The position numbers and the translations under genes were made by a program. Positions 1 through 35,315 of a DNA stretch of 64,000 nucleotides are shown piece after piece; position 1 is the first letter of the stretch; each line of letters opens with the position of its first letter. The notes beneath the pieces are model-generated. The model was not told where the DNA came from, searched no databases, and saw only the letters and a program-made list of their open reading frames with translations. This stretch comes from Comamonadaceae bacterium (GTDB lineage Bacteria > Pseudomonadota > Gammaproteobacteria > Burkholderiales > Burkholderiaceae_C). The stretch covers positions 62,001 through 126,000 of the forward strand of contig CANEXF010000005.1 of the NCBI GenBank assembly GCA_947443645.1, read 5' to 3'.

Positions 1-1256
1 TCGTCTGGCTTGGAAGCATTGCCCTCGATGTAAGGGCTCCATGGCTTGGCCTTGACCGGACCAGGCGTCTTCCACACCACGTTGAACTGGCCGTCGGCCT
101 TGATTTCGCCAATGAACACCGACTTGTGCAGGTGATGGTTCTTCTCGTCCATCTTGGAGACGATGCCGGACGGCGCATTGAAGGTCTGGCCGGCCATCGC
201 GGCGATGACCTTGTCTGTATCGGTGGACTTGGCTTTTTCAACGGCCTGCTTCCACATATTGATGCCGATGTAAGTCGCCTCCATCGGGTCGTTGGTCAAA
301 GGCTTGTCGGAACCGGGCAGCTTCTTGGCTTTTGCATAAGCGGACCACTTCTTGATGAACTCGGTGTTGGCCGGGCTCTTGATGCTCATGAAGTAGTTCC
401 AGGCGGCCAGGTGACCGACCAGCGGTTTGGTGTCCACGCCGCGCAGCTCTTCCTCGCCGACGGAGAAGGCAACGACTGGCACGTCCTTGGCTTTCAGGCC
501 TGCGTTGCCGAGTTCTTTGTAGAAAGGCACGTTGGAGTCGCCGTTGATGGTGGAGACCACCGCTGTCTTGCCGCCTTCGGAGAATTTCTTCACGTCAGCC
601 ACGATGGTCTGGTAGTCCGAGTGGCCAAACGGCGTGTATTTCTCGTCGATGTCCTTGTCGGCCACGCCCTTGCTTTTCAGGTAGGCGCGCAGAATCTTGT
701 TGGTGGTGCGTGGGTAGACATAGTCCGTGCCCAACAGCACCCAGCGCTTGGCGCCGCCGCCAGCCTTGCTCATCAGGTAATCAACAGCCGGAATGGCCTG
801 CTGGTTGGGTGCTGCACCGGTGTAAAACACGTTTTTAGAGAGTTCTTCACCCTCGTACTGCACGGGGTAGAACAGCAAGCCGTTCATTTCTTCGACCACT
901 GGCAACACCGACTTGCGGGACACCGATGTCCAGCAGCCGAAAATCACCGAAACCTTGTCCTGACCCAGCAGCTGCTTGGTTTTCTCAGCAAACAGCGGCC
1001 AGTTAGAAGCCGGGTCAACCACCACGGGCTCGAGCTTCTTGCCGAGCACGCCGCCCTTGGCATTGATCTCGTCAATTGCCATCAGCACGGTGTCTTTCAG
1101 AACGGTCTCGGAAATAGCCATGGTGCCCGACAGGCTGTGCAAGATACCGACCTTGATGGTGTCAGCCGCATGGGCTGGCAGGACGCTCAGGCCTGAGAGG
1201 GCGACAGCGGCGGTAAGCGCTTTAAGCGTAAAACGACGTGATTTCAGACTTTGCAT
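1..1256 (-). CDS. urtA: urea ABC transporter substrate-binding protein UrtA (3' end outside window)
   Basis: Periplasmic binding component of the high-affinity urea ABC transporter UrtABCDE. The reading frame opens at an ATG at 1256 on the minus strand and stays open to the window edge: about 418 codons are seen, close to the usual full length, so only a few residues are missing. The N-terminus MQSLKSRRFTLKALTAA with a cleavage region near AHA is a signal peptide. The mature part starts DTIKVGILHSLSGTMAISE and contains GCWTSVSRKSVLPV and LLFYPVQYEGEE, which I associate with UrtA rather than LivK. The rest of the urt operon would lie to the left, downstream on this strand. The 5' region holds a TTGCA-N6-TGCAA inverted repeat. 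Physiologically it pairs with the urease operon at 24.9 kb. The identification comes from sequence motifs. Confidence 0.93.
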   Translation of the reverse strand, partial: MQSLKSRRFTLKALTAAVALSGLSVLPAHAADTIKVGILHSLSGTMAISETVLKDTVLMAIDEINAKGGVLGKKLEPVVVDPASNWPLFAEKTKQLLGQDKVSVIFGCWTSVSRKSVLPVVEEMNGLLFYPVQYEGEELSKNVFYTGAAPNQQAIPAVDYLMSKAGGGAKRWVLLGTDYVYPRTTNKILRAYLKSKGVADKDIDEKYTPFGHSDYQTIVADVKKFSEGGKTAVVSTINGDSNVPFYKELGNAGLKAKDVPVVAFSVGEEELRGVDTKPLVGHLAAWNYFMSIKSPANTEFIKKWSAYAKAKKLPGSDKPLTNDPMEATYIGINMWKQAVEKAKSTDTDKVIAAMAGQTFNAPSGIVSKMDEKNHHLHKSVFIGEIKADGQFNVVWKTPGPVKAKPWSPYIEGNASKPD

Positions 1257-1488
1257 GGTTGCTTCTCCGTTAGGGTGGTGGTTTGCATCTCGCTGCAAGG
1301 GGACCCCATCCATGGCCTTTAAGCAGCGATGGTCCGATTCTGCGGAGCTCTGCCGCATTCGGAAATACGCCGGGTGGCGTATGCGGCGGCGCCGGGCAGT
1401 CAAAAAACAGGGGCTTGCGAGCCTGTCCGACAGACAAGCATCGTCACGGGGGCTAGGATCAATGGTTTTCCCTCACCAGGCTTTGAGC

Positions 1489-20135: not shown

Positions 20136-21200
20136 TCAGCCCTCAAACTGGGGATGCAGCTGCTTGATGCGGTTCATGGCCATGCCTGCAGCAGCGGTGC
20201 GCGTTTCAACCCCGAGCTTGACGTAAACCCGCTCCAGATGCTTTTTGACGGTGGCCGGACTGGCGCCCAGGATGTCTGCGATGTCGCGGTTGATCTTGCC
20301 CTTGACCACCCAGTACAGCACCTCGGCCTCCCTGGCCGTGAGCTTGAAGCTCAGGCTCATGGCCCGGGCAATCGCATCTTCAGAGGTCTCGCGCATCACA
20401 ATGAGCCAGTCACCGCCCTCGCCGGATTGCGCATCCCCCGTCTGTTGATGCAGCCGAAACGTCAGACGCCGCTGCCCTTGCTCGACCGACAAACGCGGCG
20501 GCTCAATCTGGCGTTCGGCGTCCGCCACATGTTGGCGCAACCATTGCAGCACAGGTTCCGGCGTTTGCGGGGCGGCCGTGCCGTAGTAGCGCATCAGCAA
20601 CTCGCGCGCCAGCGGCGTTTGCCAGATCAGCCGGCCCGCCCCTTCACCCTCCTGAGCAGTTTCCAAACGCACCGTGATGCTGGCATAGCCGAACGCATCC
20701 AGCGCATTGCGCGCCTGACCGGCTTGCCTGGCCTCTTGCCTGGCGCGTCGGGCCCCTTGCAGGTGAACCCCCATGCGGGCCATCACCTCCCTGGGCTTGA
20801 TGGGCTTGGTCACGTAGTCCACGCCACCGGCTTCCAGCGCGGCAACCAGATACTCGGTTTCGGTCAGGCCGGTCATGAAGACGATGGGAATATGCGCGGT
20901 CTCCGGCATGGCCTTCAGTCGTCTGGCAACTTCAAAGCCGTCCATACCCGGCATCATGGCGTCGAGCAGCACGATGTCGGGCAGCGCCTGCCTGGCACGC
21001 TGGAGTGCCGCCTCGCCACTGCTGGCCACCAGCACGGTGTAGCCTGACTCGTCAAGCGCGTCATGCAGCACCGACAGGTTGTCGGGCACGTCATCAACAA
21101 TCAGCACCACATCGCTGTTGGCACGGTCCAGGGTCTGGTTGAGCTTGTGATCCAGCCTGGGCTGATCATGACTTGCCGCTTCTTCAAGCATCTTGTGCAT
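20136..21200 (-). CDS. LuxR/NarL-type response regulator paired with the transporter-kinase
   Basis: 354 residues. Receiver domain about 30-145: VVLIVDDVPDN (acidic pocket), phosphoacceptor Asp80 in IVLLDAMMPGMDG, and Lys in DYVTKPIKP. The middle (about 165-280) looks PAS-like, with no known motif. The C-terminal helix-turn-helix (about 285-345) is of the LuxR class: LTAREAEVLYWVVKGKINRD and GASPATVKKHLERVYVKLGV. The start ATG at 21200 overlaps the end of the kinase gene by 17 nt, so the two are translationally coupled. It is expected to bind DNA and control genes linked to the kinase signal, plausibly the adjacent urease or urea-transport genes; that target is inference. Confidence 0.92.
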   Translation of the reverse strand: MHKMLEEAASHDQPRLDHKLNQTLDRANSDVVLIVDDVPDNLSVLHDALDESGYTVLVASSGEAALQRARQALPDIVLLDAMMPGMDGFEVARRLKAMPETAHIPIVFMTGLTETEYLVAALEAGGVDYVTKPIKPREVMARMGVHLQGARRARQEARQAGQARNALDAFGYASITVRLETAQEGEGAGRLIWQTPLARELLMRYYGTAAPQTPEPVLQWLRQHVADAERQIEPPRLSVEQGQRRLTFRLHQQTGDAQSGEGGDWLIVMRETSEDAIARAMSLSFKLTAREAEVLYWVVKGKINRDIADILGASPATVKKHLERVYVKLGVETRTAAAGMAMNRIKQLHPQFEG

Positions 21201-24200
21201 GCCGGGCCTCTGGGGGAGAGAGCTGCTGGCTCATGGTTTCAAACTGGAATTGCCTTGCCAGCACGCGCATCTGCTCGACAAAATCCCTGGTGGCGGGCTG
21301 CCGTTTTTCAATTTCTGCAAGTTTGTTCATGATGCCGCGGTAAAACCCAAGATTGACGACCTCCAGTAGCGCTGCCAGCTCGGATGGGTCGGGTAAAGCC
21401 GATGGCGTGCGCTCGGATAGGGCCAGTTCCGGCGTCTGTACCAGCTGGTCAAGCCAGGTCAAACCCAGACGCCGCTCCAGCCAGTCAAGCAATTCGCTGT
21501 GACGCACTGGTTTGAGAATGAAATCTTCGGGCCTGATGCCCACGTCATTGTCCAGCCCCTTGTCAAACGCATTGGCCGACACAATGGCCAGGTGCGTGTC
21601 CACGCATCCCATCCTGGATATGCGGCGCAGCGTCTCCCACCCGTCAATGCCAGGCATCGCCAGATCCATGAAGATCACGTCCGGCTGGTAGCCAGCGGCA
21701 AGCAGATCAAGGCAGTCGTGGCCGCTGGCAGCAACCCGTAACTCAAAGCCCATGGGTTGCAACAATTGCACCAGAAGCTCGCGATCGGGCTCCTCGTTGT
21801 CCACCACCAGAATCTTTCGACGCACACCTTCATAGCCGCGTGGCTGGCGCCTGGCGGTGCGGATGCTGGCGCCGTGGGCGGTGGCAGAGCTGTCATGGAG
21901 CTCCGGCAAAAACAGACGTATGCGAAACACTGAACCTTGGCCGGGTGTGCTCAGCACCGTCATCTCGCCGCCCATCAGATCAGTCAACATTTTGGCAATC
22001 GTCAAGCCCAGACCAGCGCCTGGCGTGCCCTCCGCACTTTGACCTGCCGTGGTGCCGCGCGCAAAGGGCTCAAAGATCTGCGCCAACTCTGAAGCGCTCA
22101 TGCCCGGACCGGTATCTTCAATATCGACGTAGGCCATTTCACGCGCATAGCGCAGTTTGAAAGTAACCTGCCCCTGGGCCGTGAACTTGATAGCATTTCC
22201 CAACAGGTTGATCAAAATCTGGCGCACGCGTTTTTCGTCGGCACGAACCAGTTCAGGCAGATTGCCGTTGGCCTCGAAGACAAAACGCAGTCCCTTGGCG
22301 GCGGCCTGCAGCTCAAACATGCTGGCCATTTCATGCACGCAATCGGCGAACTGCATGGGCCTGACCGTCAGGGTGAGCTTGCCGGCCTCGATGCGGGCAA
22401 TGTCCAGCGTGCCCTCGATCAACGACAGCAAATGCTCACCGCCACGCTTGATGACACTGACGGCCTGCTTGCGATGCGGCGGGATGCTGCTGTCCTCGCC
22501 CATAAGCTGCGCATAGCCCAGGATGCTGTTGAGTGGCGTGCGCAGCTCGTGGCTGATGGCGCTGATGTAGCGGCTTTTGGCCTGATTCGCCTGGTCGGCG
22601 GCATGGCGCGCCTGCTCTGCGTGAAGCTTGGCCTGCTGCAAGGCCTCATCCGTCTGGCGGTGTGACTCGATTTCACGCATCAACAAATGGGTCTGGCGAT
22701 TGGACTCTTCCTGCGCCACCTGACGGCTCTTGTGCGCCAGTACCAGCCACCAGGCGACCAACCCGGCGATCACCAGCAAGGCCATATAGGCCTTTATAAA
22801 ACCCGAACGCAAAGCGGCCTCCGAAGGCAGCAAGTCACCCAGCGCACCGATTTCCTGGTGATAGAGCAAGCCAAAGACGCTGGCCAGCAATGGCACGATG
22901 ACCAGCATCAGCAGCAAAAAATGACCCAGACCGGTATCCAGGTAGGGCCAGACACGCCGGGGCAACAACCAGCGCAAACTTGCCGACCACTGCGATGACA
23001 AGCTGGCGTGCGGCTTGCACAAGTCGCCGCAGCGCGCATCCAGCGTGCAGCAAAGCGAGCAGATCGGCCCCTGGTAAGCGGGGCAATGCGCCATGTCCGG
23101 GCCTTCGTAGTCGCGCTCGCAAATCACACAGCGCTGCAGAATCGCCCGATCTGCCGACGGGCCGCACCTGGGAGGAACAGCCCCCTCGGTGGGCAGCGAG
23201 GACACACCGTGCTGAGCGTGGGAGCCGTCATTCCTCGCGATGTAGTAACGGCCTTTGGTCGCCCAGGCGATCAAGGGCGCCGTCAGCAAAGCCGTGCCCA
23301 TGGCAATCAAGGCCGAAAAAGCCTGGGCCATTTCGCCATAAAGCCCCAGGTGCGCAGTCACCGACAGCAGGGAAGCCAGCGCCATGGCACCCACACCCAC
23401 CGGGTTGATGTCATAAAGGTGGGCACGCTTGAATTCAATCCCGGGTGGCGACAGGCCCAGAGGCTTGTTGATGACCAGATCCGCCACGACCGCCATCACC
23501 CAGGCAATCGCCACGTTGGAATACAGTCCGAGCACGTCGCCGAGCGCCTGGAACACATTCATCTCCATCAGCATGAAGGCGATCAAGGTGTTGAACACCA
23601 CCCAGACCACCCGGCCGGGATGGCTGTGCGTCAAGCGGGAAAAGAAGTTAGACCAGGCCAGTGAACCGGCATAGGCATTGGTCACATTGATCTTGAGCTG
23701 CGACAAGACGACAAACAGCGCGGTCGCCGCCACCGCCATACCGTAGTCAGGGAAGACATATTCATAAGCGGCGAGATACATCTGGTTCGGATCGACTGCG
23801 CGATCAGGCGGCACCATATTGGAAATCGCCAGATAAGCCAGCAGTGCACCACCGAGCATCTTGACTACGCCCAGCACCACCCAGCCGGGGCCACCGACCA
23901 GCACGCCAGCCCACCAGCGCCGGCTATTGGCTTTGGTCTGCACCGGCATGAAGCGCAAGTAGTCTGCTTGTTCGCCCATTTGAGTAATCAGCGCGATGCC
24001 GACCGTCAAAGCAGCACCAAACAAGTGCAAATCAAAGCCAGAGCCACTGCCTTTATCACCTGGATAGTGCGTAATTCCGACAAAAGCACCAGGATCGCGC
24101 ACAAAAACATAGACGAAGGGAACTACCAACATCACCAACCATAGCGGTTGTGTCCAGACTTGCAACCGACTGATCACAGAGACGCCGTGCGTGACCAGGG

Positions 24201-24759
24201 GAATCACCACCAGGGCACAAATGAGATAACCCCAACTTGGCGGAATACCCAGAGCCAGATCCAGCGCATAGGCCATCACTGCGGCTTCAAGCGCAAAGAA
24301 AATGAAGGTGAAAGAGGCGTAAATCAGCGAAGTGAGCGTCGAGCCGATGTAGCCAAAACCGGCGCCGCGGGTCAGCAAATCCATGTCCACGCCATAGCGC
24401 GCGGCATAAATACTGATGGGCAAACCCGCCAGAAAAATGATGAAGCCGGTGGCAACAATGGCCCAGAAAGCATTGGTAAAACCGTACTTCACCAGAAGCG
24501 TCGCACCCACGGCCTCCAGAATAAGAAACGAGGCGGCACCAAAAGCCGTGTTGGCAACACGCCATTCAGACCACTTTCTAAAACGCTGCGGCGCAAAGCG
24601 CAAGGCGTAGTCTTCCATGGTTTCGCTGGCAACCCAGCTGTTGTAGTCACGCCTGACCTTGATCACGCGCTGCACGGCGACCTCGCCGGTGACGCGCGCC
24701 TCTAGTGGCGCCGTATCGGCACCGCTGGGGTCTGGCGCAGGGTAAGCCGAAGTTTGCAT
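21184..24759 (-). CDS. NCS1 transporter-hybrid histidine kinase fusion (transceptor-type sensor)
   Basis: 1191 residues. Residues about 45-520 are a complete NCS1 (cytosine/purine permease) transporter: SEWRVANTAFGAASF, TRGAGFGYIGSTL, GEQADYLRFMP and KINVTNAYAGSLAWSN are typical. Then comes a repeat-derived linker (SSLPTEGAVPPR), a cysteine-rich cytoplasmic segment at 544-581 (CVICERD, AHCPAY, CSLCC, RCGDLC) that could bind zinc or an Fe-S centre, and two more membrane helices (about 600-680). A coiled-coil precedes the kinase H-box SHELRTPLN (His737); the ATPase has NLLGNAIKFT, DTGPGM and GLGLTIAKML. A receiver follows, with Asp1032 in FMDLAMPG. About 90 residues follow without motif. ATG 24759 is chosen where homology-like sequence begins (MQTSAYPAPD); no good ribosome-binding site is seen, and the frame is open to 25002. 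Divergent from ureA. Confidence 0.9.
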   Translation of the reverse strand: MQTSAYPAPDPSGADTAPLEARVTGEVAVQRVIKVRRDYNSWVASETMEDYALRFAPQRFRKWSEWRVANTAFGAASFLILEAVGATLLVKYGFTNAFWAIVATGFIIFLAGLPISIYAARYGVDMDLLTRGAGFGYIGSTLTSLIYASFTFIFFALEAAVMAYALDLALGIPPSWGYLICALVVIPLVTHGVSVISRLQVWTQPLWLVMLVVPFVYVFVRDPGAFVGITHYPGDKGSGSGFDLHLFGAALTVGIALITQMGEQADYLRFMPVQTKANSRRWWAGVLVGGPGWVVLGVVKMLGGALLAYLAISNMVPPDRAVDPNQMYLAAYEYVFPDYGMAVAATALFVVLSQLKINVTNAYAGSLAWSNFFSRLTHSHPGRVVWVVFNTLIAFMLMEMNVFQALGDVLGLYSNVAIAWVMAVVADLVINKPLGLSPPGIEFKRAHLYDINPVGVGAMALASLLSVTAHLGLYGEMAQAFSALIAMGTALLTAPLIAWATKGRYYIARNDGSHAQHGVSSLPTEGAVPPRCGPSADRAILQRCVICERDYEGPDMAHCPAYQGPICSLCCTLDARCGDLCKPHASLSSQWSASLRWLLPRRVWPYLDTGLGHFLLLMLVIVPLLASVFGLLYHQEIGALGDLLPSEAALRSGFIKAYMALLVIAGLVAWWLVLAHKSRQVAQEESNRQTHLLMREIESHRQTDEALQQAKLHAEQARHAADQANQAKSRYISAISHELRTPLNSILGYAQLMGEDSSIPPHRKQAVSVIKRGGEHLLSLIEGTLDIARIEAGKLTLTVRPMQFADCVHEMASMFELQAAAKGLRFVFEANGNLPELVRADEKRVRQILINLLGNAIKFTAQGQVTFKLRYAREMAYVDIEDTGPGMSASELAQIFEPFARGTTAGQSAEGTPGAGLGLTIAKMLTDLMGGEMTVLSTPGQGSVFRIRLFLPELHDSSATAHGASIRTARRQPRGYEGVRRKILVVDNEEPDRELLVQLLQPMGFELRVAASGHDCLDLLAAGYQPDVIFMDLAMPGIDGWETLRRISRMGCVDTHLAIVSANAFDKGLDNDVGIRPEDFILKPVRHSELLDWLERRLGLTWLDQLVQTPELALSERTPSALPDPSELAALLEVVNLGFYRGIMNKLAEIEKRQPATRDFVEQMRVLARQFQFETMSQQLSPPEARHAQDA
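23161..23226 (-). repeat. interspersed GC-rich repeat, in frame in the transporter-kinase linker
   Basis: Plus-strand CAGCCCCCTCGGTGGGCAGC followed by GAGGACACACC and GAGCGTGGGAGC. It matches the mdtB copies (CAGCCCCCTCGGGGGGCAGC ... GAGCGTGGGGGC). It is translated in the same frame as in mdtB, giving SLPTEGA versus SLPPEGA, and lies exactly between the transporter and the cysteine-rich segment. Confidence 0.7.
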
Positions 24760-24847
24760 ATGAAAAGGGGCATGGGGAAAGTGTCCCGGCTTGCGTGCAT
24801 GTTCCATGCCACGCCAGCGCCAGGGGCCGTGGAGGGCGTCCAGCGTG

Positions 24848-24863
24848 TGGCACCATTCTTGCA
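24848..24863 (+). promoter_or_regulatory. sigma-54 promoter of the urease operon
   Basis: TGGCACCATTCTTGCA: GG at 24849-24850 and GC at 24861-24862 separated by exactly 10 nt, matching the TGGCAC-N5-TTGCA consensus at every defined base. Transcription should start near 24874, giving a leader of about 37 nt before ureA at 24911. It implies NtrC-type activation under nitrogen limitation. I see no convincing NtrC box in the short region upstream. Confidence 0.85.
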
Positions 24864-24910: not shown

Positions 24911-25213
24911 ATGGAACTGACCCCCCGAGAAAAAGACAAGTTGCTCATTTTTACCGCCAGCCTGCTGGCGGAGCGGCGTATGGCGCGCGGTCTCAAGCTC
25001 AATTACCCCGAAGCCGTGGCACTCATCAGCGCGGCGGTGATGGAGGGCGCGCGCGACGGCAAGACTGTGGCGCAACTCATGAGCGAAGGTCGCACCGTGC
25101 TGACCAGCGCCGATGTGATGGACGGCATTGCAGAGCTGATTCCCGACATCCAGGTTGAAGCTACTTTCCCGGACGGCACCAAGCTCGTCACCGTGCATCA
25201 GCCCATTGTTTGA
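24911..25213 (+). CDS. ureA: urease gamma subunit
   Basis: 100-residue structural subunit of urease, the nickel enzyme that hydrolyses urea to ammonia and carbamate in the cytoplasm. [20 protein letters not shown] and [21 protein letters not shown] are typical, and the length equals the family standard. AAAGAAG precedes the ATG. First gene of the operon ureA-ureJ-ureB-ureC-ureE-ureF-ureG; expressed from the sigma-54 promoter at 24848-24863. Confidence 0.98.
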
Positions 25214-25250
25214 CACCTGCATCCGATTTAAAAATCAAGAGGAACACACC

Positions 25251-25853
25251 ATGCGAATGACCCATGTATTGAAGCGCCTGCTGATTGCGGCGACCGCGCT
25301 GCCGCTGGCGGCCATGGCACACAACGGGTTGGACAGCCATGCACACGCCGGCTTCTTGCTCGGCTTTATTCACCCGCTAACGGGCGCTGACCATCTGGCC
25401 GTCATGCTGGCTGTGGGGCTGTGGAGTGCACTGGCAGCGCGCCGCGCCGGCCCCGACATGCTCTGGGGACCACTTGCTTTTGCCGGCATGCTGCTGTTAG
25501 GTGCGGTCTTGGGCTTGCAGGGACTGCAGATTCCAGCCGTCGAACCCATGATTGCCGCATCTGTGCTGGTGACAGGCCTGCTGGTCATCACGCGCTGGCG
25601 CATTGCCGGCATCGCCGCAGCGCTGTTGGTCGGCGTGTTCGCGGTCTTCCATGGCCTCGCACATGGCGTTGAACTGGCGGGCAGCCCGCAAGCCGCGGCC
25701 TCGTTGGCGGGCATGCTCGCTGCGACCGCGCTGCTCCACGCCACAGGCCTGGGCCTGGGTTGGGCCTTGCGCAATGCCAACGTCTGGCTGACACGACTTG
25801 CCGGTGCGGGTGTTTCCGCGTTTGGCGCGACGCTGCTGACTCAGCTGAACTGA
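25251..25853 (+). CDS. ureJ: HupE/UreJ family nickel transporter-like protein
   Basis: 200-residue polytopic inner-membrane protein with a signal-like N-terminus ([15 protein letters not shown]). The family signature [16 protein letters not shown] is near residue 45 and [10 protein letters not shown] near 130; these His/Asp positions are thought to bind nickel in HupE/UreJ proteins. Six or seven hydrophobic helices are visible. Placed between ureA and ureB, it would supply nickel for urease. ATG 25251 has AAGAGGA upstream. Confidence 0.93.
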
Positions 25854-25866
25854 AAGCAAAATCATC

Positions 25867-26196
25867 ATGATTCCAGGCGAGATGATGACCGATGGGGCCG
25901 ACCACGTCCTCAACGCAGGCCGGCGCAGTATGACGCTGGTGGTGCAAAACACTTCTGACCGGCCGATACAAGTGGGCTCGCACTACCACTTTGCCGAAAC
26001 CAATGCGGCGCTCAGCTTTGAGCGCAGCGCGGCGCGCGGCATGCGGCTCAATATCGCCTCGGGCATGGCGGTGCGTTTTGAGCCTGGCCAGCAGCGCACG
26101 GTAGAACTCGTGGACTTCGCTGGCGATCGAATAATTTACGGCTTTCGTGGTCTGGTCAACGGGCCAGTCGACGCCAGCACCGAAGGGACAATTTAA
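25867..26196 (+). CDS. ureB: urease beta subunit
   Basis: 109-residue structural subunit. [25 protein letters not shown] and [18 protein letters not shown] are the family pattern. The length fits free-standing UreB. Its stop codon overlaps the ureC start by one base (TAATG), which couples translation of the two subunits. Confidence 0.98.
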
Positions 26197-27914
26197 TGGC
26201 AACGATTGGCAGACGCGCCTACGCTGAAATGTTTGGTCCCACCGTGGGCGACCGCTTGCGGCTAGCCGACACGGAGCTGATGGTCGAAGTAGAAGCCGAC
26301 TACACACTGCGCGCCGGCAGCTATGGCGAAGAGGTCAAGTTCGGCGGCGGAAAAACCATTCGCGACGGCATGGCACAGTCGCAACGCACCAGAGCACAAG
26401 GCGCTGTTGACTGCGTGATGACCAACGCGCTCATCATTGACCACTGGGGCATCGTCAAGGCCGACATCGGCCTGAAGGGCGGTCGCATCGTCGCCATTGG
26501 CAAGGCCGGCAACCCGGACGTGCAGCCGGGCGTCGACATCATCATTGGCCCAGGCACCGAAATCATCAGCTGCGAAGGCATGATAGTCACCGCAGGCGGC
26601 ATTGACTCGCACATACACTTTATCTGTCCGCAGCAAATCGAAGAGGCGCTGACCTCCGGCGTCACCACCATGATGGGCGGCGGCACCGGACCGGCCACCG
26701 GCACCTTTGCCACCACCTGCACGCCAGGGCCCTGGAACATTGAGCGCATGCTGCAGGCCGCCGACGGCTTTGCCATGAATCTGGGCTTTCTCGGCAAGGG
26801 CAATGCCAGCCTGCCCGGCGCACTGCATGAGCAGATCAACGCCGGTGTGATTGGCCTGAAGCTGCACGAAGACTGGGGCACCACGCCAGCGGCCATCAGC
26901 AACTGCCTGGATGTGGCTGATGAAACCGACACCCAGGTTGCGATTCACAGCGACACGCTCAATGAATCTGGCTTTGTCGAGAACACCATCGCCGCCACCA
27001 AGGGAAGGTCGCTCTGCGCCTTTCACACCGAAGGCGCCGGTGGCGGTCATGCGCCTGACATCTTGAAGGTCGTGGGTGAGGCCAACTTCCTGCCATCGTC
27101 CACCAACCCGACCATGCCCTATACCGTCAACACGCTGGACGAACATGTGGACATGTTGATGGTCTGCCACCACCTGGACGCCGGCATTGCCGAGGACCTG
27201 GCCTTTGCCGAGAGCCGCATACGCAAGGAAACAATTGCGGCAGAAGACGTGCTGCATGACCTGGGCGCGATCAGCATGATGAGCTCGGACAGCCAGGCCA
27301 TGGGACGTGTTGGCGAGATCATCATCCGCACCTGGCAGACGGCTCACAAGATGAAGCAGCAGCGCGGCAAGCTGCCCGGGGATACCGAGCGCAACGACAA
27401 CTTCCGCGTCAAACGCTACATCAGCAAATACACCATCAATCCGGCCATTGCACACGGCATCTCCCACGAAGTCGGCTCGATTGAAGTCGGCAAATGGGCT
27501 GACCTGGTGGTCTGGAAGCCGGCGTTTTTTGGCGTCAAGCCGTCCATCATCCTCAAGGGTGGCTTTATCGCCATGGCAGCCATGGGCGACCCGAATGCGT
27601 CCATCCCCACGCCGCAGCCCGTGCATTACCGGCCCATGTTTGGCGGCTTTGGCGGCGCCATCGCCAAAGGTTCGTTGACCTTTGTCTCGCAAGCCGGGCT
27701 CAACGCGGGCATTCTGGACAAGTTTGGCCTGGCCAAGACGCTCAGCGCCGTGAAAAACATACGCGGTGTGCGCAAACAGCACATGGTCCACAATCACTAC
27801 CTGCCCAAAATGGAGATCGACGCGCAAACCTATGCGGTGCGCGCCGACGGCCAGTTGCTGACCTGCGAGCCGGCAACCAGCCTGCCCATGACACAACGTT
27901 ATTTTCTTTTTTGA
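26196..27914 (+). CDS. ureC: urease alpha (catalytic) subunit
   Basis: 572-residue nickel amidohydrolase, full length. Active-site features are all present: HIH metal ligands in GGIDSHIHF, the carbamylated lysine in [12 protein letters not shown], His ligands in [10 protein letters not shown] and [13 protein letters not shown], the flap Cys-His in MVCHHLD, and the metal Asp in SSDSQAMGR. Requires UreD/E/F/G for nickel insertion; UreE, F and G follow, while UreD is not in this window. Confidence 0.99.
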
Positions 27915-27922
27915 TTGACTCA

Positions 27923-28528
27923 ATGCTGCAGGTTTCAAAACTCATTGCCCAAGGCGCAGGCCTGGCCCCGGTGCTGGTCAAACGCGCAGCCAGCGTGGAG
28001 CTTGATTGGGACGTGCGCCAGAAAAGCCGCTTTGATGCGACCGACTCTCTGGGTCGCCAGCTCGGCGTGTTCTTGCCGCGCGGCACGCTGGTGCGCGGCG
28101 GCGATATGCTGCTGGCCGAAGATGGCTCCATGGTCAAGGTGATCGCGGCCCCTCAGCTTGTGCTGCGCATCACGCATTGCACAGACCACGGCTCGCCGTT
28201 TGACCTGCTGCGCGCCGCCTACCATCTGGGCAATCGCCATGTGCCGATTGAGCTCAAGCCCGACCATCTGAAGATCGAACCCGACCACGTGCTGGCAGAC
28301 ATGCTGCGTGCCATGCATCTGATCGTGCGCGAAGTCAACGAAGCGTTTGAGCCAGAAGGCGGCGCCTACAGCGCGGGCGGGCATGCCCACGAGCATGCAG
28401 GCACTGCCAAGCCGGCATCCCAGCCAGCGCACGTGCATGGCCCCGACTGCAATCACGGCCACGACCATGCCCAGGCCAGCCAGCCGGTAGCGATTCAGAT
28501 CCATAAACACAAGCCGCACAGCCATTAA
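27923..28528 (+). CDS. ureE: urease accessory metallochaperone UreE
   Basis: 201 residues. The N-terminal peptide-binding domain is about 1-75 and the metal-binding domain about 80-150, including [24 protein letters not shown] with the conserved nickel-site histidine region. The tail is strongly histidine-rich ([29 protein letters not shown]), as in nickel-storing UreE proteins. I start at ATG 27923; a TTG at 27911 that overlaps the ureC stop is also in frame. It hands nickel to the UreDFG-apo-urease complex. Confidence 0.96.
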
Positions 28529-28538
28529 GGCGTCCTGC

Positions 28539-29258
28539 ATGTTTGAGCAAGCTGCCGGATCGGCACCCGCCCTGTCGGCAAGCAGCCTGATACAGCTGAT
28601 CTGGCTGGCCTCGCCAGCCTTGCCCGTGGGCGGATTTTCATACTCGGAAGGGCTTGAAACAGCCATAGAACGGGCGGGAGTAGCTACAGAAAGCATAGCA
28701 TCTGACTGGCTCGACGATCAACTCCATTTGACACTGGCGCGTGGCGACCTCGCCGTCATTGCGCAAGCGGTTCCGGCCTGGCGCCAAGGTCAGACCGGTG
28801 ATCTGGCGCGCATCAGGCAACTCAACGACTGGGTGCTGCAAACCAGGGAAACCAGCGAGCTACGGGCACAGGCCGAACAAATGGGACGCTCTCTGCTTGA
28901 ATGGCTGCGCAACCACGATGGCTCCGACGCTGCACGCATCGCCGCCTGCGCCGGCCTGCCGCCGACCTACCCGATCGCATTTGCGCTGGCGGCCTCACAG
29001 ACATCGGCAGGCGTGCGCGACTGCCTGCTGGCCTACGCCTTTGGCTGGGCAGAAAACATGATGCAGGCCGCGCTCAAGTCAGTGCCCCTGGGCCAGAGCG
29101 CTGGCCAGCGCATACTCGCCAGATTAAGCCGCGCCATCCCTGCGGCAGTCGAGCTGGCCATGCAACTGCCAGACGACGAGCGCCAGGCTTTTTCACCGAT
29201 GCTGGCCATTCTTTCTTCGCAACACGAAACCCAATATTCGAGGTTATTCAGATCATGA
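28539..29258 (+). CDS. ureF: urease accessory protein UreF
   Basis: 239-residue helical protein that forms the UreDFG activation complex. [16 protein letters not shown] near residue 26 is the family signature; further matches are [15 protein letters not shown], and [19 protein letters not shown] near residue 170. The codons for [13 protein letters not shown] (28659-28701) resemble one of the interspersed repeats, yet the protein length there equals that of other UreF proteins. The stop overlaps the start of a small open frame that leads to ureG. Confidence 0.96.
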
Positions 29259-29344
29259 TGGCAGTGCCGAACCGATTCAAACAAGATCACGCTCCATCGG
29301 GGCGAGGTGCAGCCGCCACGCCGGCAAACGCGGGGTCCGTATGA
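29255..29344 (+). other. 29-codon open frame bridging ureF and ureG
   Basis: ATG at 29255 overlaps the ureF stop (ATGA), and its own stop at 29342-29344 overlaps the ureG start (ATGA). It encodes [18 protein letters not shown] and an Ala-rich end. It may be a translational-coupling leader rather than a functional peptide; it has no recognisable similarity. Confidence 0.35.
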
Positions 29345-29997
29345 GCATGCACCATATCGCCAACCGAAGCAAAAAACTGCCTCCGCTCCGAGTCGGCATA
29401 GGCGGGCCCGTCGGCTCCGGCAAAACCACCTTGCTCGAAATGCTGTGCAAGGCCATGAAAGAAAAATACGATCTCGTGGCGATCACCAACGACATCTACA
29501 CCAAGGAAGACCAGCGCATCCTCACGGTGAGCGGCGCGCTGGACGCAGAGCGCATCATGGGCGTGGAAACCGGCGGCTGTCCGCACACAGCCATACGCGA
29601 GGACGCCTCGATCAACCTCGAAGCCATAGATCGCATGTTGGTGGATTTTCCGGATGCTGACGTGGTGTTTGTCGAGTCTGGCGGCGACAACCTGGCCGCG
29701 ACCTTCAGTCCCGAACTGAGCGACCTGACGATCTACGTGATTGATGTGGCGGCCGGAGAAAAAATCCCGCGCAAGGGCGGACCAGGCATCACCAAGAGTG
29801 ATCTGTTTGTCATCAACAAGACCGACCTCGCGCCCTACGTAGGCGCTGACCTGAAGGTGATGGAGGCTGACACCATTCGCATGCGCACCACAGCCAAGGG
29901 CCTCAAGCCTTTTGTCATGACCAACCTCAAAACCAACACCGGTTTGGCCGAAGTCGTTGCCTTCATTGAAACCAAAGGCATGCTGCAGGCGAGTTGA
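29341..29997 (+). CDS. ureG: urease accessory GTPase UreG
   Basis: 218-residue SIMIBI-class GTPase that powers nickel delivery to urease. P-loop [12 protein letters not shown] is near residue 22, the metal-binding CPH motif is in [12 protein letters not shown], the Walker B-like [11 protein letters not shown] is near 115, and the NKTD guanine-specificity motif is in [18 protein letters not shown] 29341 is used; a second ATG is two codons later. Last gene of the operon in the window; a tRNA follows. Confidence 0.98.
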
Positions 29998-30219: not shown

Positions 30220-31506
30220 TCAGCCCAGCAAGCGCTCGTGCACCCACTGCGCCACCGCCAGCAGGCGGTAATCGTCACCCCTGCGTCCCACCAATTGCAG
30301 GCCCACAGGCAGACCATGCCGGCCTGTCGCAAAGGGCAGATGCACGCAAGGCAGACCAAGCAGTGTCCAGCCGCGACAAAACAAGGGGTCACCAGTAGCG
30401 GCTATGCCGAGCGGCGCCTCACCGGTGCTGCTGGGCGCGATCAATACATCAAATTGGGCAAACATCGCGTCTGCGCTGAGCTGGGCAGCTGCGGTGATCG
30501 CGAGATTGGACGCATGCACCTGGCCTGAAATAGCCCGGCCTTCGTCCATCATCGCGCGCATAGGCTGGCTTAACAGCTCGCGATGCCGCACACGCTCATG
30601 GCTCAGAGCGCGTGACATCTCGTAGCTCATCACCGCCTTTTGCAGCACCACCAGATCAGGCAGATCTATAGGCCATGCGGCATCTTGCAGGATTGCAGCG
30701 AGTGGCGCCAACACTGTGCTGGCGCGCTCGAAGGCCTGCTGCGTATCCGCGTCAGCCTGCGACCAGTCGGGCGTGCGGCACAAGCCTATGCGCGGCGCAG
30801 CTAGCGCAGCAAGCGCGCCCAGCCTGGCATCGCCCGTCAGCACGGCGCCCAGCAAGGCCGCGTCGCGCACACTGCGCCCGAAGCTGCCAACAGTGTCCAA
30901 GGCTTCTGACAGGCTTTTGACGCCAGCGCGTGGCACCAGGCCCGCGCTGGGCTTGTAGCCGACCACGCCGCAGTACGCGGCCGGTCGCACAATCGAGCCA
31001 GCAGTCTGGGTACCCAGCGCAAGAGGCAGCATGTGATCAGCCACCGCGGCCGCAGACCCGCTTGATGACCCACCTGGCGTGTGCCTGAGGTCATGCGGGT
31101 TTCTGGTCGGCCCGGGATGAAAGTAGGCGAACTCGGTCGTCACCGTTTTACCCAGCACCAGGGCGCCGGCCTCACGACACAGCGCCACAGAAGCGGCGTC
31201 AGCCGCCGGCCGGTTCACGGCGTAGATCGGCGAGCCATAGGCCGTTGGCAAATCGACCGTATCAAACAGGTCTTTCACACCCAGCGGCAGGCCATGCAGC
31301 GGGCCGCGAACAGGACCGGCATCAAGCGCGCGGGCCTGCGCCAACACAGTGTCGGGCTCGATATGCACAAAGGCGTGGAGCTCGCCGTCGCGCTCTGAAA
31401 CGCGATCCAGGCAGGCGCGTGCCAGGTCGACCGCCAGAATCTCACGCCTGGCCAGCAGCTGAGCAGCGCGCCAGGCCTCAAGTTGGTTGAGTGGAATGTT
31501 GCTCAT
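30220..31506 (-). CDS. amidase signature family hydrolase
   Basis: 428-residue amidase-signature enzyme that would hydrolyse a carboxamide or carbamoyl-type bond and release ammonia or an amine. The catalytic Ser-cisSer-Lys triad region is visible: GLPLGVKDLFDT (Lys near 80), and TPGGSSSGSAAAVA (cis-Ser near 150), followed by GTQTAGSIVRPAAYCG with the nucleophile Ser. ATG 31506 is preferred because it overlaps the stop of the upstream M20 gene (ATGA). It is the last gene of the operon that includes the ABC transporter. The substrate is unknown. Confidence 0.9.
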   Translation of the reverse strand: MSNIPLNQLEAWRAAQLLARREILAVDLARACLDRVSERDGELHAFVHIEPDTVLAQARALDAGPVRGPLHGLPLGVKDLFDTVDLPTAYGSPIYAVNRPAADAASVALCREAGALVLGKTVTTEFAYFHPGPTRNPHDLRHTPGGSSSGSAAAVADHMLPLALGTQTAGSIVRPAAYCGVVGYKPSAGLVPRAGVKSLSEALDTVGSFGRSVRDAALLGAVLTGDARLGALAALAAPRIGLCRTPDWSQADADTQQAFERASTVLAPLAAILQDAAWPIDLPDLVVLQKAVMSYEMSRALSHERVRHRELLSQPMRAMMDEGRAISGQVHASNLAITAAAQLSADAMFAQFDVLIAPSSTGEAPLGIAATGDPLFCRGWTLLGLPCVHLPFATGRHGLPVGLQLVGRRGDDYRLLAVAQWVHERLLG

Positions 31507-32657
31507 GGGCTTGGCGCACACCAGTCGGTGATCAGGTCGGTGAACAAGACCTCTGCCTCACGTATGCGATCAACGCGGCAATACTCGTCGGTCTGGTGCG
31601 CCATCTCTGGCTGGCCCGGACCAAGAATAACGACAGGTGGCATGCCCAGGGGCAGGCGCAGCGCAGCTGCATCGGTGAAATACGAGACAGTGCGCTGCTC
31701 GGGCATGGCGCCGCTGCGCGCGGCACACAGCGCAAAGACGCGCTGCATCCAGGGATCTGTCGCAGGCGTGAAGACGCTGGCCACGTCAAGCAGCTTGCGC
31801 AACTCAATCTGCGAGCCGAGCACGCGGCACAGGCATTGCAGCACTTGGGCATGGTCCTGCCCCGCCACGGTTCGGATGTCTATGCCAAGCTCTGCCGCAT
31901 CAGGCACGGAGTTGATGTTCAGCCCACCTCGCGCAGTACCGACGTTGAGCGTGGGCGCGCCCATCAAGGGGTGCGCAGCAGTGTCAAATTCAAATTTCTC
32001 AAGCGCCAGCGCGGCACGCGCCATCTTGTAGACGGCGTTGTCACCACGCTCAGGCATGGAGCCGTGGGCAGTGACGCCTTTGGCTTCAGCCGCCAGCCAG
32101 AACGCGCCCTTGTGTCCAAGCAGCGGCAGGTTGCCCGTCGGTTCAGCGACGACCAGCGCACCCGCCGTACCCAGCAGCTCACGCGCCTGCGGCGACGAGG
32201 CCATCGCAAACGCGCCCTCGCAGCCGGTTTCTTCACCGGCTGTGATGATCAGGCTCAGGCCGGGACCATCGCGCAACTGCTGGGCGCAGGCGATTGCGGC
32301 ACTGGTGAATGCAGCCACACCGCTTTTCATGTCGCTGCTGCCGCGGCCATAAAGCAGGCCGTCAACAATTTCAGCGCCAAAGGGGTCGTGTTGCCATGCA
32401 GCGCCCCCCAGAGGAACAACGTCGACATGACCGGTAAAACACAGCGGCGCGCGCATGCCTGCGGAGCCGGGTCGGCCACCGATACGCGCGACCAGGCTGG
32501 TGCGGTGCGGCGCAAATTCATGCGTGCGACAGGAAAAGCCCGCGCTCGAAAGCAGGTCCGCCAAAATCTCAACGCAGCGGTCCTCATGTCCTGGCGGATT
32601 GACAGTATTGAGGCGCACCAGCGCCTGGGTCAGCGCAACCGGATCGGGTGTTGCCAT
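31503..32657 (-). CDS. M20 family metallohydrolase (ArgE/DapE-like)
   Basis: 384-residue two-zinc hydrolase of the acetylornithine deacetylase/succinyl-diaminopimelate desuccinylase type. Metal ligands are in CFTGHVDVVP (His, near 75), GRGSSDMKSG (bridging Asp), TAGEETGCEGAF (Glu catalytic plus ligand) and VVAEPTGN; a last His appears near the C-terminus in MAHQTDEYC. It could act on an N-acyl or N-carbamoyl amino acid. It sits between livF (13 nt) and the amidase (ATGA overlap), so transport and two hydrolytic steps are coupled. The exact substrate is not predictable. Confidence 0.9.
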   Translation of the reverse strand: MATPDPVALTQALVRLNTVNPPGHEDRCVEILADLLSSAGFSCRTHEFAPHRTSLVARIGGRPGSAGMRAPLCFTGHVDVVPLGGAAWQHDPFGAEIVDGLLYGRGSSDMKSGVAAFTSAAIACAQQLRDGPGLSLIITAGEETGCEGAFAMASSPQARELLGTAGALVVAEPTGNLPLLGHKGAFWLAAEAKGVTAHGSMPERGDNAVYKMARAALALEKFEFDTAAHPLMGAPTLNVGTARGGLNINSVPDAAELGIDIRTVAGQDHAQVLQCLCRVLGSQIELRKLLDVASVFTPATDPWMQRVFALCAARSGAMPEQRTVSYFTDAAALRLPLGMPPVVILGPGQPEMAHQTDEYCRVDRIREAEVLFTDLITDWCAPSP

Positions 32658-32670
32658 GAACTACTCCTGT

Positions 32671-33381
32671 TCAACCGAAGTACGCAGCGCGCACTTCTTC
32701 GTTGTCGTTCAATTGCTGGGCCGTGCCCTGGGCCACCAGACGGCCTTGCGACAGCACATAGCCGTGGTGCGCAATCGCCAGGGTCTGGCGCACGTTCTGC
32801 TCGACCAGCAGCACCGTGATGCCCAGGCGGTTGATATCGCGGATGATGCGGAAATTTTCTTTGACATACAGCGGTGACAAACCCAGCGAAGGCTCATCAA
32901 TGATCAACAGCTGGGGTTGCGCCATCAGGCCCCGGCCTATGGAGACCATGGCCTGCTCGCCGCCCGACATCGTACCGGCCAGCTGCAGACGCCGCTCTTT
33001 CAGGCGCGGGAACAGCGCATAGGTCTGCTCAATGCGGCGCGCCACCTCGCGCTCGTCGCGCTGCTGGTAGGCGCCAACACGCAGGTTTTCTTCAACCGTC
33101 ATTTTGGGGAAAACCTTGCGGCCTTCCGGTATGCAAGCGATACCGCTGGCAATCACCCGGTGCGTTGGCAGGCCGCTGATGGGCTGGCCGTTGAAACTGA
33201 TGCTGCCAGTATGCGCTGGCGTCAGCCCGAGAATCGAGCGTATCAACGTCGATTTGCCGGCACCATTGGCGCCCAGAATGCAGGTGATGGTGCCCTTGGC
33301 CACTGCCAGCGACACGCCGTGCAGCACGTCAACGCGGTCATAGGCGGTGTGTATGCCGTTGACGGTCAGAAGATCACTCAT
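32671..33381 (-). CDS. livF: branched-chain amino-acid-type ABC transporter ATP-binding protein LivF
   Basis: 236 residues. Walker A GANGAGKSTL near 38, signature MSGGEQAMVSIGRGL near 137, Walker B LLIIDEPSLGLSPL near 157, and a His switch region in QNVRQTLAIAHHGYV. One of two cytoplasmic ATPases of a HAAT-family importer. Overlaps livG by ATGA. Confidence 0.95.
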   Translation of the reverse strand: MSDLLTVNGIHTAYDRVDVLHGVSLAVAKGTITCILGANGAGKSTLIRSILGLTPAHTGSISFNGQPISGLPTHRVIASGIACIPEGRKVFPKMTVEENLRVGAYQQRDEREVARRIEQTYALFPRLKERRLQLAGTMSGGEQAMVSIGRGLMAQPQLLIIDEPSLGLSPLYVKENFRIIRDINRLGITVLLVEQNVRQTLAIAHHGYVLSQGRLVAQGTAQQLNDNEEVRAAYFG

Positions 33382-34163
33382 GCCGCAACCTCCTGACCCA
33401 GATAGGCCACCTGAACTTCAGGATCGCGCGTGATCTCATCAAAACTGCCTTCGGCGATTTTCTTGCCATAGTTGAGCACAACGCAACGCTGCGTGATGCG
33501 CTGTATCACGCCCATTTCATGTTCGATGATGACGACCGTGAAGGGCGACAACTGCGCCCGCACCTTGAGGATGTCGTCCATCAGCTCGCGCGTCTCGTCA
33601 TGCGTCATGCCGGCTGAAGGCTCGTCAAGCAGCACCAGACGCGGGTTGGAGATCAGCGCGCGGCAGACCTCGACCCGGCGCCTATCAATCATGCTCAGGC
33701 TGCCTGCCGGCTGCCACATCTTGGCGGCCATGCTGCTGCTGAAAGTCTGCAACAGCGCATGGACTTGCTCTACCGTCTGCTCGAACTGCGCACGCAGCGC
33801 CTTGCGCTGCAGCAAGTTGAAGATCAAGCCCTGGTTCAGGTGCTGGGTCTGACCTATGGCCACGTTGTCAAACACCGTCAGCGGCAAGGACAAGCGCGAG
33901 CGCTGAAAGGTTCTGGTCACGCCTGCGCGGTAAACAGCCTGTGGCGACTGGCGCGTCAACAGCTTGCCATCGAGCAAAACCTGGCCTGACGTGGCCGCGT
34001 AGAGTCCGGTGACAACGTTGAAAAATGTCGTCTTGCCTGAGCCGTTGGGGCCGAGCAAGCCAAGAATCTCGTGCTCGTTGACCACAAGGTCCAGCGCGTC
34101 GAGCGCGGTCACGCCGCCAAAGCGCATGGTCAGCGCGCGGGCTTCCAGCAGCGGCGCGCTCAT
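33378..34163 (-). CDS. livG: branched-chain amino-acid-type ABC transporter ATP-binding protein LivG
   Basis: 261 residues. Walker A GPNGSGKTTFFN near 38 and Walker B LVLLDEPSAGM near 165. The ABC signature is degenerate (AGSLSMIDRRRVEV in place of LSGGQ), which is common in LivG proteins. The C-terminal CVVLNYGKKIAEGSFDEI is typical. Overlaps both livF and livM by ATGA-type junctions. Confidence 0.95.
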   Translation of the reverse strand: MSAPLLEARALTMRFGGVTALDALDLVVNEHEILGLLGPNGSGKTTFFNVVTGLYAATSGQVLLDGKLLTRQSPQAVYRAGVTRTFQRSRLSLPLTVFDNVAIGQTQHLNQGLIFNLLQRKALRAQFEQTVEQVHALLQTFSSSMAAKMWQPAGSLSMIDRRRVEVCRALISNPRLVLLDEPSAGMTHDETRELMDDILKVRAQLSPFTVVIIEHEMGVIQRITQRCVVLNYGKKIAEGSFDEITRDPEVQVAYLGQEVAA

Positions 34164-35314: not shown

Positions 35315-35315
35315 A

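Follow-up and report, generated by a model that had tools for sequence, protein, structure and literature searches.

The window (the whole analysed stretch of DNA, 64,000 nucleotides) encodes a transporter fused to a hybrid histidine kinase which, with its partner regulator, probably forms a two-component system: the transporter part would act as a transceptor for urea or short amides, and the regulator would drive uptake genes. We know of no earlier urea-sensing two-component system and no NCS1 transceptor, and this would be the first of each if the reading is true. Few transporter-kinases have been characterised, and the fused kinase described here is widespread and uses another transporter class. 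The features are collected in Table 1.

Table 1. Features of the transporter-kinase system in the window (coordinates in window positions).
Feature	Position	Strand	Basis or remark
NCS1 transporter, eight-cysteine segment, helix pair, HisKA/HATPase and REC hybrid kinase (P0001), 1191 aa	21184..24759	-	
NCS1/LeuT-fold transporter domain, residues about 28-510	23230..24678	-	profiles, AlphaFold2 model, fold matches
Eight-cysteine segment, residues about 541-584	23008..23139	-	sequence, model
Helix pair read as transmembrane hairpin, residues about 610-690, from cysteine segment to kinase	22690..22932	-	helices from model; membrane placement is a reading of the sequence
HisKA, residues 727-793, phospho-acceptor H737	22381..22581	-	Pfam
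HATPase_c, residues 841-951	21907..22239	-	Pfam
Receiver (Response_reg), residues 983-1093, D1032	21481..21813	-	Pfam
Partner response regulator, REC and LuxR/GerE, 354 aa	20136..21200	-	Pfam
Sigma54-like -24/-12 element TGGCATGGAACATGCA, 9/11, facing kinase gene	24796..24811	-	lines up with elements of relatives
Sigma54-like -24/-12 element TGGCACCATTCTTGCA, 11/11, facing ureA	24848..24863	+	
Divergent urease cluster ureA-ureJ/hupE-ureB-ureC-ureE-ureF-ureG	24911..29997	+	ureC by PF00449; order and names after relative L163
Palindrome TACGCC-N4-GGCGTA, candidate regulator site, about 110 bp before urtA start	1366..1381	+	
urtA (urea ABC transporter binding protein), likely regulated gene	1..1256	-	ATG at 1256, no stop before the window's edge

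The preliminary description of this DNA had proposed a transporter joined to a hybrid kinase, and this was borne out by a single frame, Pfam kinase and receiver domains, and remote NCS1 profile and fold matches. The frame of P0001 runs uninterrupted from 24759 to 21184 without a frameshift, on the minus strand, which the preliminary description had not specified; an alternative, longer TTG start at 25002 would cross ureA. A search for the same layout in other genomes (best 80 genome loci) placed 81 of 81 transporter copies within a frame of 1144 aa or longer. Because such a frame recurs around all these copies, the fusion is not an artefact, and separate polypeptides or a missed frameshift are ruled out by this recurrence together with the intact frame.

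P0001 has the parts of a hybrid histidine kinase, namely HisKA with its histidine, HATPase_c, and a receiver with its aspartate, and H737 and D1032 lie where they had been placed before. The tail behind the receiver contains one histidine (1187), near its end, and no Pfam match to an HPt domain; P0001 as a whole had no PAS match. The partner combines a receiver with a GerE helix-turn-helix, as in NarL/LuxR-type regulators, and its gene, as proposed earlier, overlaps the kinase gene, starting 17 nt inside it. A ribosome-site pattern search gave no match.

The assignment of the transporter domain required several approaches. PF02133 did not match P0001 even at E<=10, and the NCBIfam cytosine permease model NF008241 matched residues 49-233 with E 9.4e-5, far below the model cut-off. 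One kinase-free relative (43-45% identity) passed the PF02133 cut-off (31.7 vs 23.5 bits), the sole case among 36 members scanned, and TIGR00800 (ncs1) matched a more distant relative (about 29% identity) with E 2.5e-16, below cut-off. A profile aligned with E. coli CodB at E 2.6e-4 and a probability of only 42%, and hardly aligned with AllW (E 0.15). Searches of PDB sequences by phmmer and profile gave 0 matches. The AlphaFold2 model of residues 1-720 (pLDDT 68.8, pTM 0.62) had CodB (E 9e-5) and then Mhp1 (E 4.6e-4) as top Foldseek matches, with Z 18.9 for CodB (292 residues, 4.0 A) and Z 18.7 for Mhp1 (334 residues, 5.2 A), although other LeuT-fold families tied with these two within Z 1. 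SSS structures (NIS, SGLT) were also among the Foldseek matches, and fold alone does not separate SSS from NCS1.

An SSS/SLC5 identity was not supported. PutP aligned at E 0.59, and the SSS model was found neither in P0001 (Pfam, E<=10) nor in the list of 17 families obtained from 36 relatives; the Amt model was likewise absent from the Pfam matches of P0001 and these relatives. The relationship of the transporter domain to NCS1 is remote but consistent in sequence and fold, with P0001 itself below curated cut-offs. CodB and Mhp1 (7qoa, 2jln) share remote sequence similarity with P0001 and are its best fold matches; P0001 differs from them in falling below the PF02133 and NCBIfam cut-offs, in its C-terminal cysteine segment and in its urea/amide context. 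The invariant K356 of P0001 lies at or next to what we take to be the TM8 sodium ligands of CodB, with an alignment uncertain by about one residue.

P0001 would work like CbrA and CrbS but, judged by its transporter domain, is not an SLC5/STAC kinase; the comparison with these two, made in the preliminary description, holds as a working analogy. Like CbrA, CrbS and RpuS, P0001 has a transporter fused to a histidine kinase. It differs from them in having an NCS1 rather than SLC5 transporter, a cysteine segment and helix pair where they have STAC, a urea/amide gene context, and a module that also occurs with GGDEF-EAL. The stretch between transporter and kinase, with eight cysteines and a predicted helix pair, had no Pfam match (Pfam may hold no STAC model). 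According to the sections cited here, CrbS and RpuS are hybrid kinases with LuxR-type regulators whose targets include the transporters actP and mctP, and CbrA carries a lysine in its Na2 site (PMC13022988, PMC9100948, PMC5715377, PMC7096432). Ks-Amt5, the ammonium sensor kinase of Kuenenia, also uses the fold of an uptake transporter as sensory module for a nitrogen compound, but has the Amt fold and responds to ammonium (PMC5764959, in the part cited). The ammonia sensor GrtK has a different, PilS-like sensor domain, as described in the cited part of PMC12918730, and was set aside. A literature search on NCS1 fusions and urea sensing found unrelated kinases and mostly electrode sensors.

The divergent urease cluster, to which the preliminary description had not pointed, is a functional clue to the ligand, and across genomes the system is statistically linked to urea/amide genes. 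Urease, fmdA, or urtA plus urtB lay within 10.5 kb in 121 of 140 non-identical transporter rows, and urea/amide context was present in 106 of the 115 rows with at least 7.5 kb of upstream sequence. As a control, 20 regions of 19 kb were placed arbitrarily in fusion-bearing genomes, and none of the 20 carried such markers. The set of 140 excludes loci with only 1.5-kb flanks (L082-L133, L167-L199, L220-L244), duplicates as judged by residues 101-300 of the aligned piece, any piece shorter than 400 aa, and matches scoring below 150 bits (L214, about 29% identity, and L166, about 23%). Neighbours of family members were urease, urea/amide ABC transporters, formamidase and amidase. The nine rows without this context despite enough flank were L026, L032, the first copy of L061, L134, L138, the second copy of L143, L145, L146 and L160; L138, L145 and L146 carry other output parts. 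Formamidase-urtABCDE operons (fmdA, fmdB) and the urea transporter ("UTS") loci of Klebsiella (PMC13209695, PMC13060141, as cited) adjoin the fused kinase, which in the one Klebsiella plasmid region examined is divergent from urtABCDE-formamidase. In the main texts of these two papers, searches found no mention of a two-component system, histidine kinase or response regulator. For a urtABCDE operon, the cited part of PMC13296017 reports a hybrid kinase and a LuxR regulator as neighbours, without terming the kinase a transporter.

We also followed gene partners on a tree of 70 rows, obtained after near-copy removal and rooted with L214, an outgroup on a very long branch. The urease label changed 7 times and the formamidase label 12 times, with 6 and 8 changes forced by well-supported branches; some changes are rows labelled "none" owing to short flanks. 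The partner has been exchanged several times on this tree without leaving the urea/amide genes.

Kinase-free relatives, 43-55% identical, offer a comparison of transport and signalling residue by residue. Their nine rows form one clade in the tree; L245-L250 were added to the rows for their kinase-free copies. One group lies in urease operons in 5 of 5 cases (four from one family and an Acinetobacter plasmid). In 4 of 4 cases its sister clade heads fmdA-fmdB-amiE operons, divergent from a fused copy and in the usual place of urtABCDE. Neighbourhoods were read for 7 of 10 matches of kinase-free length, that is, all except G943, G945 and a 383-aa piece in G949. The alignments do not include L161, for which two frames were obtained. 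In TM1 the two forms split cleanly: position 82 is E in 132 of 132 fused copies, preceded by L, M or I, whereas in 9 of 9 kinase-free copies position 81 is D, followed by F or Q. With the nine kinase-free rows being one clade, this split may reflect a single event.

These comparisons bear on whether the fused domain also transports. That it still moves urea or amide while signalling, as CbrA does with histidine (PMC7096432, in the part cited), is possible but, in our view, less likely than not: the polar core residues D125, D127, Q260, E263, Q264, D266, Q354, K356, N358 and N361 are identical in 132 fused and 9 kinase-free copies, but the split between E82 and D81 looks as if one form had lost or changed transport, and Ks-Amt5 binds ammonium without moving it, according to the cited part of PMC5764959.

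The cysteines of P0001 are residues 544, 547, 559, 567, 570, 571, 577 and 581, in a segment with a treble-clef-like order of strands and helices that lies in a low-confidence part of the AlphaFold2 model. The eight cysteines reported earlier (544-581) are present, but they were not added by the fusion, since kinase-free relatives share four of them without exception and the formamidase-linked ones retain all eight. The segment is probably a structural metal site. It is unlikely that the eight cysteines themselves report metal or redox state (for instance nickel, which urease needs), or that the signal is the nitrogen state of the cell, with the transporter domain as a mere anchor. In favour of such a role, every one of the 132 fused copies has all eight, but the transporter-core residues are equally invariant, and systems adjoining formamidase, an enzyme that is not known to need nickel, carry the same cysteines. 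The kinase-free copies in urease operons keep only four.

The putative site of the regulator is a 16-bp palindrome, TACGTCA-N2-TGACGTA, with the form TACGCCA-N2-TGGCGTA in the urease-linked clade. TACGT-N6-ACGTA occurred in 19 of 30 urtA-kinase intergenic regions, and in 30 shuffled sets no 5-bp dyad occurred in more than 3. With at most two mismatches the palindrome preceded 21 of the 30 fusions linked to formamidase and 6 of the 8 linked to urt genes, compared to 10 of 595 background windows; it was absent at up to three mismatches from 9 of the 30 and 2 of the 8, and the first form was absent at up to two mismatches from 70 of 74 urease-linked fusions. In the window, the first consensus gave one match (3 mismatches), no more than chance, and in the whole own genome 27 places at up to three mismatches, fewer than the backward control (143). 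The window site was recognised as the clade variant only after the urease-clade scan. As the variant pattern at up to three mismatches gave 4 matches in the window against 2.3 expected, the case for this site comes from its symmetry, from its location ahead of urtA and from a cross-genome test.

In that test, every fusion-positive genome of the family (15 of 15) and one of the 15 fusion-negative genomes had the clade variant before urtA (Fisher p 2e-7). The positive cases include genomes with urtA on a different contig or at a distance of 67 kb, 245 kb or 2.5 Mb. The variant consensus had first come to light in members of the family tested, namely 11 loci plus the window, and at least 3 of the 15 positive genomes (G403, G410, G553) had a urtA site seen in the earlier urease-clade scan; excluding them, the count is 12 of 12. 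The 31 test genomes were chosen before their upstream regions were read, and the 16 negatives were picked for completeness and do not cover all urease-bearing negatives. The regulator was found in 5 of the 5 fusion-positive genomes searched (of 15). Among the 16 fusion-negative genomes, also searched, the exception G430 was the sole one with a full-length match (52%, adjoining its urease); in genomes with more than 98 first-look candidates, scoring covered the best 98.

There is a precedent in CrbR, a LuxR-type regulator paired with a transporter-kinase: it depends on an imperfect inverted repeat, as reported in the cited part of PMC5715377. It is distinctly unlikely that the palindrome serves a different regulator and simply accompanies the operons. 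The site is putative, and at up to three mismatches it is missing from 11 of the 38 fusions linked to formamidase or urt genes; however, in the family test it preceded urtA, at unlinked loci too, only together with the fusion or, in G430, with a regulator match without kinase, and the urease-linked and amide-linked clades have different half-sites.

The preliminary description had suggested a purine, hydantoin or related compound as ligand, which the neighbourhoods did not bear out: purine/hydantoin genes were listed in 0 of 13 annotated neighbourhoods of members with at least 44% identity, other loci having been scanned for urea/amide markers only. L166 (23% identity, outside the counts) adjoins xanthine-dehydrogenase-like genes, so other branches may see purines. 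A sensor of nucleobase, hydantoin or allantoin, although in line with L166 and with the resemblance to CodB and Mhp1 in fold and remotely in sequence, is therefore very improbable in view of the 121 rows with urea/amide neighbours and the 13 neighbourhoods.

Sigma54-like elements (at least 9/11 of the consensus) faced ureA in 57 of 67 and the kinase gene in 61 of 67 urease-linked regions, compared to 35 of 670 shuffles; for the kinase-facing element of the window, the scan reported another, tied 9/11 match. An NtrC-site pattern had 2 matches in the window against 4.2 expected, none of them at the ureA or kinase promoters, and the window has no palindrome at up to four mismatches between kinase and ureA. 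A sigma54-like promoter, as at ureA here, would not normally be activated by a LuxR-type regulator alone. In Pseudomonas stutzeri, formamide and acetamide use rose in an ntrC mutant (PMC8443478, in the part cited), which would count against the favoured reading if that strain carries the fused kinase.

In the urea/short-amide transceptor system that we favour, the conserved sigma54-like elements suggest that nitrogen limitation would lead to transcription of the kinase-regulator operon. Judging by the gene neighbourhoods, the NCS1 domain would bind a ligand outside the cell, either urea or a small amide akin to it (formamide, acetamide). A conformational change of the transporter might then pass through the cytosolic cysteine segment and the helix pair or coiled coil to HisKA, and H737 would serve to phosphorylate the regulator. 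Because no HPt domain was found, we assign the C-terminal receiver (D1032) a tuning role in phosphorylation. The regulator may act at the palindrome upstream of urtABCDE, as the controlled comparison suggests, or in relatives upstream of formamidase operons or operons of the kinase-free transporter, and more of the sensed compound would be taken up. We infer ligand binding, kinase activity and DNA binding of the system. The reading predicts a regulon and operator for urea/amide scavenging, to which the papers cited here assign no local signal, also for the plasmid-borne Klebsiella loci of urea uptake.

The transporter-cysteine module is joined to hybrid kinases in most members, and otherwise to short kinases, one PAS kinase and one GGDEF-EAL enzyme, the latter in a relative that ends in PAS-GGDEF-EAL. 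Judged by these sequences, the module is portable. We think it somewhat more likely than not that NCS1 domain, metal-binding-like cysteine segment and helix pair constitute a new receptor class, a portable sensor of urea and short amides, whose kinase form would control uptake through the LuxR-type regulator and the 16-bp operator.

Among viral contigs, 0 of 5 pattern matches encode a relative. Relatives of the transporter part were found in 111 of 200 genomes sampled from the window's family and in 52 of 398 sampled across its phylum. A set of 584 matching stretches was confirmed against the whole of P0001, a number that may include plain kinases, and 521 plasmid records contain a transporter relative over at least 80% of its length.

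Neither a frameshift nor a split into separate polypeptides was found in the gene for P0001, the transporter-hybrid kinase of the window, and the kinase frame is intact over its full length. The protein matches the Pfam models for HisKA, HATPase_c and receiver domains, and H737, D1032 and the eight cysteines lie where the preliminary description had placed them. The genome collection contains at least 584 stretches whose products are related to P0001 taken as a whole. The best 80 of these were kept, and all of them carry the fusion, so that the domain order recurs in other genomes. At the level of the window's family, 111 of 200 genomes have a relative of the transporter part; the figure is 18 of 369 at class level and 52 of 398 at phylum level. 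Such relatives also occur in 537 plasmid records (342 from Klebsiella); 521 plasmid records covered at least 80% of the query. The transporter-kinase system is real and widespread. An in-frame TGA interrupts the transporter of one family member (G424:C1:4456404-4458098). Two records of 379 and 329 kb labeled "Acinetobacter phage MD-2021a" (CAKLQF020000001.1, CAKLQH020000001.1), which perhaps contain plasmid or chromosome sequence, encode, at 87% identity, the transporter that elsewhere lies in a urease operon.

Features in the window and in the related locus L145
Feature	Positions	Strand	Remarks
Transporter-hybrid kinase gene (P0001)	24759 to 21184	minus	single unbroken frame, 1191 aa
Regulator gene	21200-20136	minus	REC and GerE domains; start 17 nt within kinase gene
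Urease cluster ureA-ureJ-ureB-ureC-ureE-ureF-ureG	24911-29997	plus	upstream of kinase gene, divergent
Candidate operator	1366-1381		upstream of urtA, whose start is at 1256
NCS1-Cys module with PAS-GGDEF-EAL in the kinase's place	L145 7852-11520

The assignment of the transporter to NCS1 held as a remote relationship, although P0001 had no match to PF02133 even at E ≤ 10. The NCBIfam cytosine permease model matched P0001 (E = 9.4e-5) and the ncs1 model one distant relative (E = 2.5e-16), both below cut-off. The only one of 36 family-alignment members to pass the PF02133 cut-off was a kinase-free relative with 43-45% identity. The family profile aligned with CodB (E = 2.6e-4, probability 42%) and not with PutP. 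CodB and Mhp1 were the top matches of the structure model (pLDDT 68.8) among solved structures, with other LeuT-fold families close behind. We therefore call the P0001 transporter a remote NCS1 relative.

Of the 80 best loci, 69 contained urease genes. The remaining 11 comprised 7 with less than 2.5 kb of upstream sequence, 2 with urt genes (L029, and L061 with urtA only) and 2 with neither (L026, L032). In the window, the identity of ureC was also supported by PF00449, and the urease gene order is that annotated in the relative L163. More distant members were divergent from urtABCDE-fmdA-fmdB(-amiE) or stood at the end of a urease cluster. Altogether, urease, formamidase or urt genes lay within 10.5 kb in 121 of 140 non-identical rows, and in 106 of the 115 rows with at least 7.5 kb upstream, compared with 0 of 20 arbitrarily placed control regions. 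Partner labels switched often on a tree of 70 rows, with some switches due to rows with short flanks, which implies exchange of partners within the set of urea/amide genes; the tree does not exclude a single inherited association. The most telling context clue comes from the kinase-free copies. Five lie inside urease operons (L148, L159, L248, L249, L250), and four head fmdA-fmdB-amiE operons (L135, L245, L246, L247), each divergent from a fused copy and in the place that urtABCDE occupies elsewhere. In the remote cousin L214, a gene read as a nitrilase-like amidase comes next.

When 5-bp dyads were counted without bias in 30 intergenic regions between urtA and the kinase gene, TACGT-N6-ACGTA appeared in 19; in 30 shuffled sets, the count for any dyad was at most 3. 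With up to 2 mismatches, TACGTCA-N2-TGACGTA preceded 21/30 formamidase-linked, 6/8 urt-linked, 4/74 urease-linked and 1/19 context-free fusions, against a background of 10/595 windows of the same loci, some of which may be true sites. Among kinase-free copies, it preceded 4/4 formamidase-linked (at sites common to the fused neighbors) and 0/5 urease-linked ones. The urease-linked clade has the variant TACGCCA-N2-TGGCGTA, which with at most 1 mismatch stands before urtA in the window and in 11 of the 12 loci holding urtA. The twelfth, L061, has the TACGTCA-N2-TGACGTA form, and its urtA goes with a second, amide-type copy. Degenerate variant sites (≤3 mismatches) occurred between kinase and ureA in 34/67 loci versus 11/1340 shuffles; the window has none there.

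The site was also compared across 31 genomes of the family. Fifteen of them carry the fusion and 16 do not; one of the 16 lacks a urtA match. The site stood before urtA in 15/15 fusion-positive and 1/15 fusion-negative genomes (p = 2e-7); at least three positives (G403, G410, G553) were already among the loci behind the variant consensus, and without them the count is 12/12. The regulator was found in all 5 of the 15 positives that were searched. Among the 16 negatives, a full-length regulator match was seen solely in the exceptional genome, G430, the others reaching receiver length at most. In G430, the regulator gene (L314 4783-5859) lies alone beside ureA with no adjoining kinase, no transporter match was found in the genome, and the operator before urtA is kept; the locus is a natural regulator-only derivative. 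The site thus appears to follow the regulator, even when a long distance separates urtA from the kinase gene.

On the strength of the operator comparison and the kinase-free copies, the best explanation for the system is a two-component system that acts as a urea/short-amide transceptor and has a predicted operator. Sigma54-like elements were found in urease-linked loci toward ureA (57/67) and the kinase (61/67; shuffles 35/670), and in formamidase/urt-linked loci toward the kinase (14/28) and urtA (1/28; shuffles 19/280). Passages of PMC5491218 describe ureA, ureC and urt genes of Burkholderia cenocepacia as NtrC-dependent and its urease cluster as sigma54-dependent too. Nitrogen limitation would set the level of the sensor, and urea or amide its output. 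The system would work in the same way as known transporter-kinases; its transporter class, linker and predicted regulon are new. Searches of open-licence papers listed none that describes a kinase fused to an NCS1 transporter or a comparable two-component system that senses urea; passages of PMC13296017 name, as annotation, a hybrid kinase together with a LuxR regulator next to a urtABCDE operon.

The eight cysteines, aligned, are invariant in 132 fused copies. They had been described as added, which is not the case: Cys 544, 547, 567 and 570 are invariant also in the nine kinase-free copies, so the segment is part of the transporter family rather than a product of fusion. Among the kinase-free copies, Cys 559, 571, 577 and 581 are retained by the four formamidase-linked ones alone. 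In the model, of low confidence here, the layout is C-x2-C ... C-x2-C with intervening strands and a helix after them, an arrangement that we read as resembling a treble-clef metal site. In L145 the transporter-Cys module leads into PAS-GGDEF-EAL, in L146 into PAS-PAS-HisKA-HATPase-REC, and in L138, L151 and L152 into kinases with the receiver unmatched. The L145 fusion adjoins ORFs reading like a CbbR-type regulator and form II RuBisCO.

K356 and the other checked polar core residues are identical across all 141 fused and kinase-free copies. In the alignment with CodB, which is uncertain by about one residue at TM8, K356 falls at or beside the positions of the CodB sodium ligands. Fused copies have E82, versus D81 plus F/Q82 in kinase-free ones, with zero exceptions. 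A lysine occupies the Na2 site in CbrA, according to a passage of PMC13022988, and K356 may by analogy play its role.

Other neighborhoods were also observed. Window positions 30220-37482 hold amidase-like, M20 peptidase-like and HAAT-type ABC transporter genes, followed by a gene for a cupin/XRE-like regulator, which translations suggest to be a second amide/amino-acid scavenging locus. On a Klebsiella IncF plasmid (L158 9989-13369), the fused kinase is divergent from urtABCDE-formamidase, with heat-shock genes near. On a Streptomyces plasmid, L166 (3926-5917; 23% identity) encodes an NCS1-like protein ending in an SCP2 sterol-binding domain, flanked by a 2-nitroimidazole nitrohydrolase gene on one side and xanthine-dehydrogenase-like genes on the other.
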